The notes under the pieces: model-generated
Told to the model about the DNA's origin: nothing
Database searches by the model: none
What the model saw: only the letters and a program-made list of their open reading frames with translations
Shown: one piece after another, positions 20,492-26,568 of the stretch
Layout of the letters: the number at the start of each line of letters is the position of its first letter
Numbering within the stretch: the stretch's first letter is position 1
Made by a program: the position numbers and the translations under genes
DNA from: Candidatus Gastranaerophilales bacterium
GTDB lineage: Bacteria; Cyanobacteriota; Vampirovibrionia; Gastranaerophilales; Gastranaerophilaceae
Direction: 5' to 3'
Assembly (NCBI GenBank): GCA_947624975.1
Contig: CANQMP010000008.1
Coordinates: 1-64,000, forward strand
Length of the DNA: 64,000 bases

Positions 20492-22381
20492 TTGAGTTTG
20501 ACAAACAAAATATACGTATATATAATATCCCTTTTGCTGGTAATCTCAAATCCGGCGTTGGTTATGGCAGAAGATGAGTTTTTTGAAGGCGGCATGACAC
20601 CTTCCGCTTCGGCATCTGTCAGCACAGAGGAAAAAACGCTAAAAGAAATTCAAATTGTAGGGAATAACGTTATTGATACCTCTCTTATTTTAGAGCAAAT
20701 GCACATCAAAAGCGGAGATGTATATAATCGTGACGCCGTTCAGCAGGATTTGAAAGCTATATATCAGATGGGTTACTTTACCGATCAAATGAAAGCTGTT
20801 CCGATGAATAATTCCGACGGAACGGTTACGCTGAAAATTGTCCTTGAAGAAAACGCACCAATAACGGATTTTACCGTAGAAGGAAATACCGTTGTTTCAA
20901 CAGATGAAATTTTAACTCATCTTCTTCCGATGAAAGGTAAACCTCAAAACATCGGGCAAATAAACGATGCTATTGCAAAAATTCAGGACGGATACAGCTC
21001 AAAAGGCTACATTCTCGCAAGAATTGAATCAGTATCAGATGACCCCGACGGAACGGTTAACGTAAGTATTAAAGAAGGTACAATTAACAGAATAATGATT
21101 TCAGGTAACGAAAAAACCAAAGATTTCGTTATAGAAAGAAATATTCTGACAGAACCCGGTACGGTTTATAACGAAAACCTTTTAAAAGAAGATTTGGTAA
21201 GGTTATATGCAACTCAGGCGTTTAAAGATGTCACAAGAGAAATTGAGCCGACGGATGAACCCGATGTTTACGATATTACAATAAATGTTGAAGAACAGAG
21301 AACCGCAAATATCTCAATAGGCGGCGGTATTGATACCGTAACCGGTGTATTCGGGTCAATGGGAATTGCGGATAATAACTTTTTGGGCAGAGGAGAAAGA
21401 GTATCACTCAACGGCTTGGCAGGTACAGGTGTAATCCTGAATGACTCCTCAATTAAAAGACGCATGAATTTACAGGCTGAATTGAGCTACTTTAAACCTT
21501 ATTTTTACAATGCGGATACTTCCTTGATGAGCAAGATTTTTTATCGTGACTTCGGCAGCTATCAAGTACCGCTTGCAATAGAAAGACGACTCGGAGCGGA
21601 AGCAACCGTCGCTCACAGAATGAAGCATAACAAAAATGTCACGGGGACTTTCTCGCTCGGCGTAGAAAATATCGACGTATCGGAAGGCGACAGACACAAT
21701 ATTTACAATTTGTATTCAAGATATAATATTCCTATCGCCCAACGTGCAAAACAACTGGACGGCGGTTTGTTCTTATCTTTAAGCCCCGCACTTTTGTATG
21801 ATACACGCGACAGCAACGCCGTTACAAGAAAAGGAACAATGGCAAGTTTAAGATTTGACGAAGAATTCGGACTTAATGATTTCGATAAAACCCACGGTAA
21901 ATTAACAGGTATGGTAAAACAATACATACCTATTGCAAAGAAATCATCTTTATCGTTCACTGCTAAAGGCGGAGGCAAAATTCACGGTGATAACATGCCG
22001 GAAGTTATGGCATACCGTTTAGGCGGCCCTTATACTATCAGAGGTTTCAAGATGAGCGGTGTAGGTACGGGTGACGCTTTTGTAATGGGAAGTGCGGAAT
22101 TTGCAACACCTATTCCGTTTTTGGACAGAACAAGGATAAACTTCCTGAACAATTTAAGATTTACGGCTTGGGTTGATGCAGGTAAAATTTTCAACTCATC
22201 AATTACGGATAAAATATATGACAGACCGCTCTATGCAGTATCTGCCGGTGTCGGTTTGAAATTTTATATTCCCGGAATGGGTCCGTTGTCAATCGATTAC
22301 GGTATTCCGCTTACAAATCCGGGTGACAACGGTAATCCGCACGGATACTTTACTTTTGGTGTAGGCGATATAATGTATTAA
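20492..22381 (+). CDS. bamA: outer membrane assembly factor BamA/Omp85
   Basis: 629 residues. Inserts beta-barrel proteins in the outer membrane. Starts at TTG with AAGGTAGAG upstream; signal peptide to about residue 28 (IISLLLVISNPALVMA). Three POTRA domains follow (about 50-280: IQIVGNNVIDTSLIL, FTVEGNTVVSTDEIL, IMISGNEKTKDFVI), then the 16-strand barrel with the lid-lock motif region AYRLGGPYTIRGFK near residue 510. The last residues FTFGVGDIMY end on an aromatic, as expected of a barrel signal, though Tyr replaces Phe. It is shorter than proteobacterial BamA (five POTRA) and agrees with the three-POTRA cyanobacterial form. First gene of an operon with skp, udp and the FlhA-like gene. Confidence 0.93.
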   Translation: MSLTNKIYVYIISLLLVISNPALVMAEDEFFEGGMTPSASASVSTEEKTLKEIQIVGNNVIDTSLILEQMHIKSGDVYNRDAVQQDLKAIYQMGYFTDQMKAVPMNNSDGTVTLKIVLEENAPITDFTVEGNTVVSTDEILTHLLPMKGKPQNIGQINDAIAKIQDGYSSKGYILARIESVSDDPDGTVNVSIKEGTINRIMISGNEKTKDFVIERNILTEPGTVYNENLLKEDLVRLYATQAFKDVTREIEPTDEPDVYDITINVEEQRTANISIGGGIDTVTGVFGSMGIADNNFLGRGERVSLNGLAGTGVILNDSSIKRRMNLQAELSYFKPYFYNADTSLMSKIFYRDFGSYQVPLAIERRLGAEATVAHRMKHNKNVTGTFSLGVENIDVSEGDRHNIYNLYSRYNIPIAQRAKQLDGGLFLSLSPALLYDTRDSNAVTRKGTMASLRFDEEFGLNDFDKTHGKLTGMVKQYIPIAKKSSLSFTAKGGGKIHGDNMPEVMAYRLGGPYTIRGFKMSGVGTGDAFVMGSAEFATPIPFLDRTRINFLNNLRFTAWVDAGKIFNSSITDKIYDRPLYAVSAGVGLKFYIPGMGPLSIDYGIPLTNPGDNGNPHGYFTFGVGDIMY

Positions 22382-22395
22382 CGGAGGTATAAATA

Positions 22396-22845
22396 ATGAA
22401 AAAAATTACTTTATCGACACTTTTAACTTTAACGGTTCTTTTGTTTGCCGCTAAAGCTCAGGCAGGTGTAGGCTACATTGACTATATGAAAGTTCAGGAC
22501 AACTTTCCTTTCGCTCAACAGGCGGTAAAAGAAGTTGATGCAAAAGCTTTGGAAATGCAGCAGTTCATGGTTGACAAAGAAAAACAATACAAATCTTTGG
22601 ATACACCGCTTAAAAAACAAAACTTTGAAGAACAAACAGCTCGCGAATTTAAACTTAAAGAAGATGCTTACATGAAATTGAAAGCCCAAAAAGAAGAACA
22701 AATTTACAACAAAATTCAAGCTGCGACAAAACAGGTTCTTGTTGAACAGAAACTCGACGCGATTCTTGATTACCGTGTAATTTTTGTCGGCGGGGTTGAT
22801 ATTTCGGATTTGGTAATCCAAAAATTAAAAAGCGGTCAGTTTTAA
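22396..22845 (+). CDS. skp: Skp/OmpH-family periplasmic chaperone
   Basis: 149 residues with signal peptide (MKKITLSTLLTLTVLLFAAKAQA). Mature start VGYIDYMKVQDNFP is the typical OmpH opening, followed by a long Lys/Glu/Gln-rich helical pair (residues 45-120, the chaperone arms) and a C-terminal strand region LDAILDYRVIFVGGVDISD. Holds unfolded outer membrane proteins on their way to BamA. Fifteen bases behind bamA with GGAGG, the common bamA-skp order. Confidence 0.88.
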   Translation: MKKITLSTLLTLTVLLFAAKAQAGVGYIDYMKVQDNFPFAQQAVKEVDAKALEMQQFMVDKEKQYKSLDTPLKKQNFEEQTAREFKLKEDAYMKLKAQKEEQIYNKIQAATKQVLVEQKLDAILDYRVIFVGGVDISDLVIQKLKSGQF

Positions 22846-22857
22846 TAAGGAGCTGAG

Positions 22858-23619
22858 ATGAAGTATTGCGAAAACGGCAGTCAATACCATATCGGGCTAA
22901 AAGCAGGCGATGTCGGCGAATATGTTATTTTGCCCGGCGATCCGAAACGTTGTGTAAAAATTGCCAAATACTTTGATGATGCGAAATTAATCGCTGACAG
23001 CAGAGAATTTGTTACATATACCGGTTATTTAAACGGCAAAAAGGTTAGCGTAACTTCAACCGGTATCGGCGGTGCATCAGCATCTATCGCCTTAGAAGAA
23101 CTTGTTAATGTCGGTGCAAAAACTTTTATCCGCACAGGTACATGTGGAGGTATGGACATTAACGTTAAAGGCGGCGATATTGTTATTGCAACAGGTGCTA
23201 TCAGAATGGAAGGAACTTCCAAGGAATACGCTCCGATAGAATTTCCCGCCGTCGCAAACCTCGATGTGACAAATGCACTCGTGAAAGCTTCCAAAATGCT
23301 TAATTTCACGGCTCATACAGGTATCGTTCAGTGTAAAGATTCGTTTTACGGTCAACATGAACCCGAACGTATGCCCGTCAGCTACGAACTTCTGAATAAA
23401 TGGGAAGCATGGAAAAAACTCGGCTGTCTTGCATCTGAAATGGAGTCTGCCGCACTGTTTGTGGTCGCAAGTTTTTTAAAAGTAAGAATAGGCTCTGTTT
23501 TTCTGACTGTTGCAAATCAGGAAAGAGAAAAACTGGGACTTGAAAATCCTGTCGTGCATGACACTGACAAGGCAATTAAAACAGCAATAGAAGCCGTTAA
23601 AATTCTCATGGAGGAATAA
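22858..23619 (+). CDS. udp: uridine phosphorylase-family nucleoside phosphorylase
   Basis: 253 residues, cytoplasmic. Phosphorolysis of uridine (or a related nucleoside) for base salvage. NP-I family: [13 protein letters not shown] near residue 23 with the phosphate-binding Gly-Asp-Pro, [26 protein letters not shown] and the ribose-binding [14 protein letters not shown]. It is co-oriented with bamA-skp, 12 bases behind skp with AAGGAG. Purine or purine/uridine specificity cannot be excluded from sequence alone. Confidence 0.85.
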
Positions 23620-23622
23620 TCA

Positions 23623-25074
23623 ATGAAAAAAATGCAGTATGTTATAAAAACCTGCTCAAGCGAAAATACTCAGGAACTTCAAAACCTTCTGAACGAAATG
23701 TCAATGAAAGACTGGGAACTGTACAGCATGCAGGAAACCGAAAGCGAAAATGGAGAAATCTTTTGTCATTGCATTTTTATGAAAGAGGTTGAAACGCCTA
23801 ACGCTGATGGAAATTCTGATGTTATGAATATCTCCTCGTTTAAATCCAGAATGGAAAAAATGATTTCTCCGCAAATGACACCGTACGAAACTTGTTTGGA
23901 AATTCAACGTAAAATTCGTGAGCGTAACGCAGAGATTTCAAAAATTAAAAAAGAACTTGAAGGCGAAGCACCCGCATCGGTCAACAGAAAAAAACTTAAT
24001 GATAAGATTTCCGCCGGCTTAAAAGAGCTTGAGGAGTTGAAAAAGAAACTTGCTGAAGCGACTTCTCCCGATTCTATTTTTTCACTTTTGAATGAAAAAA
24101 AACTTTCAATAATGCTTAGCGAAGAAATTTTAGCCGAACAGGAAGCATTTGAAGAAGAACTCGTTGCAGAAACCGTAAAACTCAGGATGAAATTGGCTAA
24201 TGAGCTGGGTTACGTAATTCCTAAGATAGTTTTCAGCGATGATGAAAATCTTAATCCGTATGAGTTCAGTATAAAAATCAGAGGCATGGAAATTTTCAAG
24301 GCGTCGGTTTACCCGAATCATCTCATGTTTTTTGCAGATGAACTTCATCTTGATTCAAAGTACAAAAACATTGAAGAAGATATTGATGAAATCACGGGCA
24401 AAGATATAATCTGGGTGGAAAAATCTCAGGCAAAAGATTTTTGGCAAAAAGGGATTTCATGCTCTGAATTTATCTCACGAGCTTTGAAATTTTGCGCTGT
24501 AAAATACGTGGATGACCTTTTGAGCTACGATGAGCTTGAAAAATATATTGATGTCGTGGCTAAAGCGAATGAATTTTTAGTCACAAATATAATTCCCGAG
24601 TATATTTCAATGTCAGATTTAAAATATATTCTCACAAGCCTTATCAAAGAACGTGTTTCAATAAAAGACATAACTTTTATATTTGAAAAAATTAATGATT
24701 ATGCGAACGAAAATACAAAAGAGGATTTAGTCAAAAAAATCAGACTTTCCCTTTCAAGTCATATTTATAGAAAATATCAGGTTGACGGAGTAATCAATGC
24801 TTTTGAGATTTCAAGAAAAACTCTTGATAAATTCATGCTCCATCAGGACGAGGACGCAATTATAAGAATTGATGCGGAAATGGCTGAAGCTTTAGCGGAA
24901 AATCTTTCGGATAAAATTGCCAAATCCGGAATCGAAACCCCGATTTTGATAGCTCCGTTGGAGTTCAGACATATAATATTTACGCTTTTGAGCAATTATT
25001 TGAACGATATAACGGTTCTTTCACGGGAAGAAATCGGATGCCATACAGATATTAAGATTATTTCAGAGATATAA
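23623..25074 (+). CDS. soluble FlhA/SctV C-domain-like protein with DUF4177-like N-terminus
   Basis: 483 residues, no membrane segment. Residues 4-55 (MQYVIKTCSSENTQELQNLL, MKDWELYSMQE) look like the small DUF4177 fold. Residues about 85-180 are coiled coil. Residues about 185-483 follow the cytoplasmic domain of the type III export gate FlhA/SctV (FHIPEP family) block by block: LANELGYVIPKIVFSDD, PYEFSIKIRGMEIFKASVYP, IIWVEKSQAKDFWQKGI, DLKYILTSLIKERVSIKDI, SSHIYRK and ILIAPLEFRHIIFTLLSNYL ending TVLSREEI. The eight-helix membrane half of FlhA is missing. Last gene of the bamA-skp-udp run, three bases after udp. No other export component is in the window. Homology call rests on recalled family sequence; function unknown. 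Confidence 0.7.
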   Translation: MKKMQYVIKTCSSENTQELQNLLNEMSMKDWELYSMQETESENGEIFCHCIFMKEVETPNADGNSDVMNISSFKSRMEKMISPQMTPYETCLEIQRKIRERNAEISKIKKELEGEAPASVNRKKLNDKISAGLKELEELKKKLAEATSPDSIFSLLNEKKLSIMLSEEILAEQEAFEEELVAETVKLRMKLANELGYVIPKIVFSDDENLNPYEFSIKIRGMEIFKASVYPNHLMFFADELHLDSKYKNIEEDIDEITGKDIIWVEKSQAKDFWQKGISCSEFISRALKFCAVKYVDDLLSYDELEKYIDVVAKANEFLVTNIIPEYISMSDLKYILTSLIKERVSIKDITFIFEKINDYANENTKEDLVKKIRLSLSSHIYRKYQVDGVINAFEISRKTLDKFMLHQDEDAIIRIDAEMAEALAENLSDKIAKSGIETPILIAPLEFRHIIFTLLSNYLNDITVLSREEIGCHTDIKIISEI

Positions 25075-25110
25075 AAAAAAAGACCTTGTAACCAAGGTCT
25101 TTCTCTTTTA
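25073..25110 (+). terminator. terminator of the bamA operon
   Basis: AGACCTTG (25081-25088), loop TAAC, CAAGGTCT (25093-25100), then TTCTCTTTT; an A8 run precedes the stem. Confidence 0.8.
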
Positions 25111-25179: not shown

Positions 25180-26568
25180 TTATGCAACTGCGCTAAGTCT
25201 TTGTTTTTTCAAATACTTTTCAGCATCGTAGCTTGCGTTTTCAATGTTCTTTTTCAATTCTCTGAAATCTTCACCGAAGAAATTTCTGCCTTCAATTCTT
25301 ACGGTGAATTGACCGTCAACATATTTTACATCATCGGAAATTTCAGCTTCCTGATCGTGGTATATATCACGCATATCTTTAAGGAATTGATTTTGAGCTT
25401 CTTCAGCTTTCATGGCTTCTTTCATTTCTTTTTCGTCTTGAGCTTGTTTTGCTTCTGCTGCTTTTTTATCTTTTGCAGCTTGAACTTTTGCTTCTCTGTC
25501 AGTCATTTCAGCTTTTACTTTTGTATAAAGATTGTTCATTAATTCTTTAATTTTTCCTTCGTCCGTATTCCAAGTCGCATTCAACTCAACTTTTATTTTA
25601 ATAAGGTCTTGTGCAACTTTTGAATAAATTCCGAGTTCTCTTGCTTTTGCTTCAAAACATTCGGTTATTTTTGCGATATATTTATTACCGCCGTCATACC
25701 AGAAATGATCATCGTAAATATAATCCGTTAATGCGCCTTCTTTGTCTTCATAGTTAGCTTTCCAATCATCGAATATTGCAACAATTGTATCTTTGTTAAC
25801 TAATTCGCTATTATTGAATAAATCTTCTAATTGATTATTCTTAGTTCCGGGACCATCAATAGAATCATAGATTAAAGATGTAACCGTTGCTGCCAAATCT
25901 TTTAATGCAGTTTCCGATGATGTTGCTGCTGTGGGATTTTCCTGAGATGCTTCTTCTTCCTGATTCGGATTAGTACCGTCCTCAGCTGCTTCTGCTGCTG
26001 CAGCCGCCTGTGAAGCGACATCTTGTGAAATACCTTGAACAAGTTTGCCGATAGAATCCGCTAATTCTGAAAGTTCTGATTTCAATTTCAAGAGTTCAGT
26101 ATCAGGAGCGCATTTGCTTATTGCATTGTTTATTTTAGCTTTTAAATCTTCAACGGCTTCAAGTTTTGCTTTAAGTTGTGCCTTTTGATTTTCGTTTAAA
26201 TCTTCCAACTCAATAACTGATTTCAAGTTTGTTTCAAGTCCTGCGATATCTTTTGCAAACTTGTCAGCATAAACCTGTATATAAATCGGTACTTCTTCAT
26301 TACTGTTATTCAAACTCAAAAGCATGGGATCTTTCTGCATTAATTGGGGATTATGTGCAAGATAGTAAGTCATAGGATCATATCCGCCATCATAAATGTT
26401 ATATTGAGTTTGTCCGCCATAATTGGAATTCCAAGCTCTGTTTCCTAAAGCTGACCAAGCCCAAATATCCGTCGGAATAGTCATCTCATAACCGACAGGT
26501 GCCGGATAATTAATTAATTTAGTTCCTCCTCCGTATAATGCTGATAATGAATCTAAATATCCTGCCAT
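25180..26568 (-). CDS. coiled-coil protein, unknown
   Basis: 462 residues. Start ATG has AGGGGA upstream. The N-terminal 80 residues are rich in Tyr, Gly, Asn and Trp (MAGYLDSLSALYGGG, WAWSALGNRAWNSN). Residues about 95-200 form coiled coil, then comes a low-complexity Ala/Glu/Gln/Asn stretch (about 185-225: AAAAAEAAEDGTNPN). A folded-looking middle with Trp/Tyr (YDDHFWYDGGNKY) and a second charged coiled coil (about 365-415) follow. No signal peptide. The general look (polar start, two coiled coils, variable middle) recalls the ASQAR-type proteins at 48101 and 63022, but the N-terminal motif is absent. Family not recognised. Confidence 0.7.
   Translation of the reverse strand: MAGYLDSLSALYGGGTKLINYPAPVGYEMTIPTDIWAWSALGNRAWNSNYGGQTQYNIYDGGYDPMTYYLAHNPQLMQKDPMLLSLNNSNEEVPIYIQVYADKFAKDIAGLETNLKSVIELEDLNENQKAQLKAKLEAVEDLKAKINNAISKCAPDTELLKLKSELSELADSIGKLVQGISQDVASQAAAAAEAAEDGTNPNQEEEASQENPTAATSSETALKDLAATVTSLIYDSIDGPGTKNNQLEDLFNNSELVNKDTIVAIFDDWKANYEDKEGALTDYIYDDHFWYDGGNKYIAKITECFEAKARELGIYSKVAQDLIKIKVELNATWNTDEGKIKELMNNLYTKVKAEMTDREAKVQAAKDKKAAEAKQAQDEKEMKEAMKAEEAQNQFLKDMRDIYHDQEAEISDDVKYVDGQFTVRIEGRNFFGEDFRELKKNIENASYDAEKYLKKQRLSAVA

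Follow-up and report, generated by a model that had tools for sequence, protein, structure and literature searches.

A soluble paralogue of the FlhA cytoplasmic domain accompanies a second export apparatus of flagellar type in Gastranaerophilales

The locus and its genes

The window, by which is meant the whole 64,000-nucleotide stretch of DNA that was analysed, carries on its + strand a tight run of four genes: bamA (Omp85; 20492-22381, recognised by profile matches), a skp/ompH-like gene (22396-22845, by a Pfam match), udp, encoding a uridine phosphorylase (22858-23619, by an NCBIfam match), and a 483-amino-acid reading frame with an ATG start (23623-25074), identified by ORF calling, Pfam and a structure model as a soluble paralogue of the FlhA cytoplasmic domain (FlhA-C). 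The end of udp lies 4 bases before the start of the soluble FlhA-C gene, and a terminator-like hairpin of 10 pairs (25079-25102, +; from a hairpin scan) lies directly 3' of it; hairpins of this kind are no more numerous in the region than in shuffled sequences, and it is the position of this one that stands out. On the - strand, positions 25180-26568 encode a 462-aa coiled-coil protein for which a Pfam scan returned no relative. A similar protein adjoins the soluble FlhA-C gene in genome G005 (L076); the neighbour is a putative substrate.

Fold, N-terminal parts and the missing membrane half

That the C-terminal ~330 residues of the protein are a FlhA/SctV cytoplasmic domain with all four subdomains is beyond doubt. 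Residues 135-472 match positions 307-653 of the 657-position FHIPEP profile (PF00771) at E 1.3e-47, far above the cut-off, while the NCBIfam models of FlhA (TIGR01398, E 2.5e-45) and SctV (TIGR01399, E 8e-26) match the same region below their full-length cut-offs, and solved FlhA-C chains are found by phmmer, with 3mix the best (E 1.5e-23). An AlphaFold2 model based on 22 homologues (mean pLDDT 79.8) contains subdomains D1-D4; its VIA comparison with CdsV, FlhA, MxiA and SctV subunits yields Z scores of 22-29 over about 290-326 residues, including 29.1 to CdsV 6wa6 and 28.9 to FlhA 7amy over 322-326 residues, and Foldseek E values against solved FlhA/SctV-type structures go down to 4e-21. An earlier, sequence-only reading of the locus had placed a FlhA C-domain at residues about 185-483 and had named a FHIPEP profile search as a test of it; the strong profile match and the fold uphold the domain, but its start is near residue 154, not 185. 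Linker and domain together occupy residues 148-483 (24064-25071), as assigned from Pfam, phmmer, Foldseek and VIA. The same reading was right that the membrane half is missing: no 19-residue window of the protein exceeds 1.6 on the Kyte-Doolittle scale, as against 7-8 segments in full FlhA, the FHIPEP match begins at profile position 307, and because the upstream gene stops at 23619 there is no room for a membrane half.

Two further elements, both anticipated by that reading, precede the FlhA-C domain. Residues 1-58 (23623-23796) form a DUF4177-like domain, supported by Pfam and by structure prediction, though below the curated cut-off: DUF4177 (PF13783) is the best Pfam match in 8/8 homologues tested (E 0.001-0.11), scoring 13-20 bits where the cut-off is 25, and the domain predicted alone adopts a beta-alpha-beta-beta fold with pLDDT 89. 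Its residues L23, N24, M26, W31, Y34, C50 and F52 are invariant. A Foldseek search with the domain model found no match under E 0.001, and a resemblance to the C-terminal domain of KCTD5, for which the best VIA Z was 6.5, falls below the level of kinship and was rejected. Residues 84-147 (23872-24063) are predicted, from AlphaFold2 helices at 87-113 and 119-146 and from the alignment, to form a helical hairpin or coiled coil that replaces the membrane-to-cytoplasm linker of FlhA; a weak match of the FliJ model to residues 122-178 (E 0.078) was set aside as coiled coil. The identity and architecture of the soluble protein are firm.

Surfaces kept and surfaces lost

In Salmonella FlhA, the chaperone dimple consists of D456, F459 and T490, and the linker around W354 packs against the adjacent subunit; that linker is also bound by FliJ, as is the cleft between two D4 subdomains (PMC8166844). 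The CdsV ring depends on D1 and D3 to hold it together and has SctO in the D4-D4 cleft (PMC7584215). Across 29 soluble homologues D456 is kept, F459 has mostly become S or T, T490 is mostly replaced by charged residues, and the GYXLI motif of FlhA reads SEE(L/I). As judged from these aligned residues, the hydrophobic chaperone dimple is not present in the soluble family. Subdomain D2 (24316-24459, by residue comparison), which held the former dimple, is variable in all FlhA groups compared.

The hairpin is followed by a FlhA-linker-like SPxxM motif (residues 148-152, 24064-24078; SPDSI in the window protein), which corresponds to E351-D356 of Salmonella FlhA, the part of the linker that stabilises the ring there. 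Its P is found in 29/29 soluble proteins and in 6/6 FlhA proteins of the second export system described below, and its M in 26/29 and 6/6, where canonical FlhA has R/K/E and V/W, respectively; equivalents of P351 and M354 are common to the soluble family and second-system FlhA. Subdomain D3 (24520-24756), delimited by alignment and the best-conserved part of the protein, carries a FIFEKIND motif at residues 352-359, and in D1 and D3 the conservation between soluble proteins and second-system FlhA equals that between second-system and canonical FlhA, which is compatible with ring formation. Subdomain D4 (24757-25071), the FliJ/SctO-binding side in FlhA/SctV, has diverged, being significantly less conserved in the soluble family by the same comparison (difference -0.14, 95% range -0.21 to -0.07). 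With D1 and D3 kept, the dimple lost and D4 diverged, the pattern fits a subunit that would still meet FlhA-type neighbours through D1/D3 and would no longer handle chaperones and FliJ in the classical manner.

Distribution, selection and gene neighbourhood

The source genome is a Gastranaerophilales MAG; loci related to it likewise come from MAGs, and those that bear a label are assigned to this order. The soluble protein is present in 85/87 Gastranaerophilales genomes searched, a sample made up of order members (55/57 with the protein) and another 30 genomes from the window's family; the two genomes without it, G034 and G054, are 98% and 83% complete. It was not seen in 35 other members of the class having FHIPEP proteins, where FlhA is of the longer, membrane type and unrelated partial FHIPEP forms occur in family f11 alone; beyond the class, the search reached close relatives only. 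All soluble proteins fall into one orthologous clade (tree support 100/100). In the genomes searched the reading frame is open and its length steady at about 480-520 aa, and the alignment contains invariant motifs in all three parts of the protein. The gene is under strong purifying selection, with dN/dS of 0.03-0.06 in the closest pairs within the genus, where synonymous sites are near saturation. The paralogue is old, widespread and specialised, not a simple copy.

The tight bamA-skp-udp-flhA-C arrangement of the window recurs in its closest relatives (L003, L005, L076), and in L006 bamA-skp is kept upstream with a different gene replacing udp. In other genera the soluble gene follows infC-rplT, precedes fliJ-fliK-flgD-flgE or lies among unrelated genes; a canonical-type fliJ-fliK-flgD-flgE run follows it in G040 and G045, which belong to one genus. 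The BamA operon setting put forward from the sequence is thus real in the window but does not extend past the genus and its near relatives. No function was read from conserved neighbourhoods, since each of them (BamA-Skp-Udp, InfC-RplT, fliJ-fliK-flgD-flgE) is restricted to small clades, and no linkage of the soluble gene to second-system genes was found in any genome examined. Tandem genes of ~230 and ~320 aa near the soluble gene (L005, L007) were also considered as substrates and rejected as mostly pilin-like or housekeeping; one protein with a FliG-like domain occurs among them in L005.

A second flagellar-type export system

A search with PF00669 detected flagellin in 48/145 genomes of the order, with no match in the source genome (G000) or in the listed genomes of its genus, g1, in keeping with the suggestion that this soluble FlhA-C protein resides in a non-flagellated cell. 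The source genome encodes one full-length FlhA (697 aa), FliF, FliE, FliH and a FliG-like protein on contig C16; FlhB with FlgE-like and FliK-like genes on C12; an SctQ-like FliMN protein, FliP, FliQ and FliR on C3, together with a small FliO-like gene assigned by position and size only; FliI on C36; and FlgF-, FlgG-, FlgB- and FlgC-like proteins on C22 (loci L073, L145, L075, L163 and L164). FlhA, FlhB and FliF are present once each. By gene content, the flagellar-type export apparatus (FlhA, FlhB, FliP/Q/R, FliF, FliH/FliI) is complete and is accompanied by predicted rod and hook-like axial proteins (FlgB, FlgC, and FlgF-, FlgG- and FlgE-like). The fliF, fliI and flhB homologues for which a genome search had been proposed are thus all there, and the idea of a platform domesticated away from any export machine is not supported: with full-length FlhA, FlhB, FliF, FliP/Q/R, FliI and rod proteins in the same genome, the soluble protein is a paralogue that exists alongside an export apparatus with all its parts. 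The converse prospect, of a complete flagellar set and a simple paralogue, holds for the export set but not for the rest, as flagellin is absent and the paralogue is old and specialised.

In flagellated members of the order FlhA, FlhB, FliF, FliP and FliI are each encoded twice, and the genes described above are the second set beside those of a canonical flagellum. In G040 the second set forms one cluster (L079; G040:C1:565001-585000) in the order fliI-flhA-fliH-fliG-like-187aa-fliF-fliE-transglycosylase-flgC-flgB-flgG-flgF, in which the transglycosylase is lytic; the canonical fliI-fliH-fliG-fliF-fliE-flgC-flgB and fliP-Q-R-flhB-flhA genes lie on another contig, clearly separate. This comparison suggests that the set encodes a separate, complete export system instead of an incomplete flagellum.

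The second system is kept throughout Gastranaerophilales, including genomes without flagellin, and related systems occur in further families of the class. In genomes with the second set only, one SctQ-like FliMN protein encoded before fliP-Q-R is the sole FliM/FliN-type protein found. The FliG-like protein (L073:3069-4082) and the 187-aa protein (L079:8842-9405) have in common an N-terminal domain of ~150 residues, which recurs in a 226-aa stand-alone protein encoded close to the soluble FlhA-C gene (L005:13045-13725) and apparently also in the third FHIPEP protein described below; no Pfam model recognised this domain in the proteins scanned.

Kinship and origin

In pairwise comparison the soluble proteins have their better match in second-system FlhA (E about 1e-37, 28%) and a poorer one in canonical FlhA (about 1e-20, 25%), and in the tree they group with second-system FlhA (support 96/92). 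Second-system and canonical FlhA are told apart by 54 alignment columns; the soluble family shows the second-system state in 15 of these and the canonical state in 4. AU tests reject neither a grouping with canonical FlhA (p 0.22) nor, within a range of p 0.22-0.24, the alternatives that include FlhA-type proteins of families f10-f12. Since no alternative is rejected, an origin of the soluble protein as a duplicate of second-system FlhA is likely but not proven.

Other FlhA-C proteins occur in the lineage. One, the third FHIPEP protein (about 595 aa; L122:5632-7410 in G131 and L123:6041-7822 in G117, with matches in G139, G158, G030 and G017), combines a FliG-like domain at its N terminus with two or three membrane segments and with an FlhA-C that has no subdomain D2, and its genes adjoin those of a histidine kinase and a response regulator. 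In family f11, a 553-aa protein (L124:5295-6956 in G081) joins one N-terminal membrane helix to FlhA-C, the membrane half of the export gate being absent. These proteins show that the FlhA docking domain has been reused more than once in this lineage.

A possible role in the second system

The soluble FlhA-C protein co-occurs with a complete second export apparatus. Together with kinship and residue patterns, this co-occurrence points to an accessory cytosolic subunit, an adaptor or gatekeeper, of the second type III system, a reading that is given about an even chance of being correct. Under it, the FlhA of a non-motility, flagellar-type second system would have been duplicated as Gastranaerophilales arose, before the order diversified, and the duplicate would have lost its membrane half and gained the DUF4177-like domain and the helical hairpin. 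The protein might then use D1/D3 and the SPxxM segment to join, stack on or cap the ring of second-system FlhA, or alternatively build a cytosolic ring of its own, while the rewritten D2 and D4 surfaces and the new N-terminal domain would bind a private partner or substrate; as adaptor or gatekeeper it would alter what the export gate accepts. Physical association with the second apparatus, ring formation and the adaptor role are features that we infer. Because almost the whole order has kept it, the soluble protein probably helps to choose the exports of the second machine. Against this stands G034, of the same family, which has the export apparatus without the soluble protein, so the protein is not essential to that machine. 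Also counting against it are the lack of linkage to second-system genes, the position before canonical-type fliJ-fliK-flgD-flgE in G040 and G045, and the AU test, in which a grouping with canonical FlhA is not rejected (p 0.22). A broader claim is offered tentatively, as one that may well prove too strong: that the whole order carries a hitherto unrecognised second type III system, with a rod, no filament and two kinds of docking ring, in which an order-specific cytosolic FlhA-C sorting subunit sits in a mixed or stacked ring.

Chief among the other explanations, though on balance doubtful, is a cytosolic decoy or regulator that would engage chaperones, FliJ/FliI or substrates at a distance from the membrane, restraining the second system or coupling its state to gene expression and never entering the gate ring. 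The protein's solubility, its additional N-terminal domain, the divergence of D4 and D2 and its dispensability in G034 would all suit such a role, as would the histidine kinase and response regulator genes beside another FlhA-C protein of the lineage; yet loss of the aromatic residue of the dimple argues against titration of classical chaperones, and a monomeric decoy would not need the ring subdomains D1/D3, which are the best kept. It is unlikely that the protein belongs to the ordinary flagellum as an accessory part, acting in hook or rod export switching and retained by chance in non-flagellated relatives. The gene does precede canonical fliJ-fliK-flgD-flgE in G040 and G045, and the AU test leaves a grouping with canonical FlhA standing, but that linkage is not seen in the other flagellated families examined. 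This explanation is already weakened by retention in non-flagellated genera, the gene being intact with dN/dS of 0.03-0.06 throughout genus g1, where none of the listed genomes has flagellin.

Still less probable is a role in envelope biogenesis alongside BamA and Skp that has nothing to do with type III export; an envelope role was one alternative that the sequence-only reading had drawn from the context. The tight gene order of the window, L003, L005 and L076, with bamA-skp in L006, is what speaks for it; this arrangement is absent from more distant members of the order, where the protein has unrelated neighbours, and the partner uridine phosphorylase has no envelope role. Since the BamA/Skp context is lineage-restricted and the protein occurs order-wide, context lends the envelope role no support. 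That the gene is a functionless, decaying remnant of FlhA can be given almost no credence: rapid evolution relative to FlhA in the tree (a stem of 1.36 changes per column) and the missing membrane half might suggest decay, but steady length, invariant motifs, dN/dS of 0.03-0.06 and a complete, well-predicted fold speak otherwise, and purifying selection over the whole order already refutes it.

Relation to known export systems

FlhA and SctV are the docking platforms that choose type III exports, and in well-studied systems they are anchored in the membrane. An order-wide soluble FlhA-C beside an anchored FlhA offers a natural experiment in which docking and gating come apart, and the second flagellar-type apparatus may serve for secretion in gut bacteria that are common but uncultured. 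Gene sets of this type in non-flagellated Gastranaerophilales appear in the available text of Di Rienzi et al. (PMC3787301), whose gene list includes two flhA genes in ACD20, and of Soo et al. (PMC4040986), where they are interpreted as genome reduction or non-functional flagella; that text makes no mention of a soluble FlhA-C. The set of the source genome resembles those sets, as far as they are described there, in being without a filament, and differs in being an orthologous second system, extra to the flagellum in flagellated relatives. In the literature searched, which leaves out most subscription journals, neither a soluble FlhA-C paralogue nor a second system has been described in Gastranaerophilales.

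Like FlhA, the soluble protein has a complete D1-D4 fold, D456, a mostly basic position 548 and a conserved D3; unlike it, it has 0 membrane segments instead of 7-8, an extra N-terminal domain and hairpin, and neither the F459/T490 part of the dimple nor GYXLI, and it coexists with full-length FlhA. Its cytoplasmic fold is equally that of SctV (Z 29.1 to CdsV), but it matches the SctV model less well than the FlhA model, and the membrane half of SctV is absent. A comparable case is FlhX of Campylobacterota, a soluble protein related to the cytoplasmic domain of FlhB. FlhX is counted among the flagellar secretion proteins (PMC9321776). Both are free-standing cytoplasmic domains of an export-gate protein found beside the full-length protein; FlhX, however, is derived from FlhB and not from FlhA, is much smaller, and is part of the flagellum.
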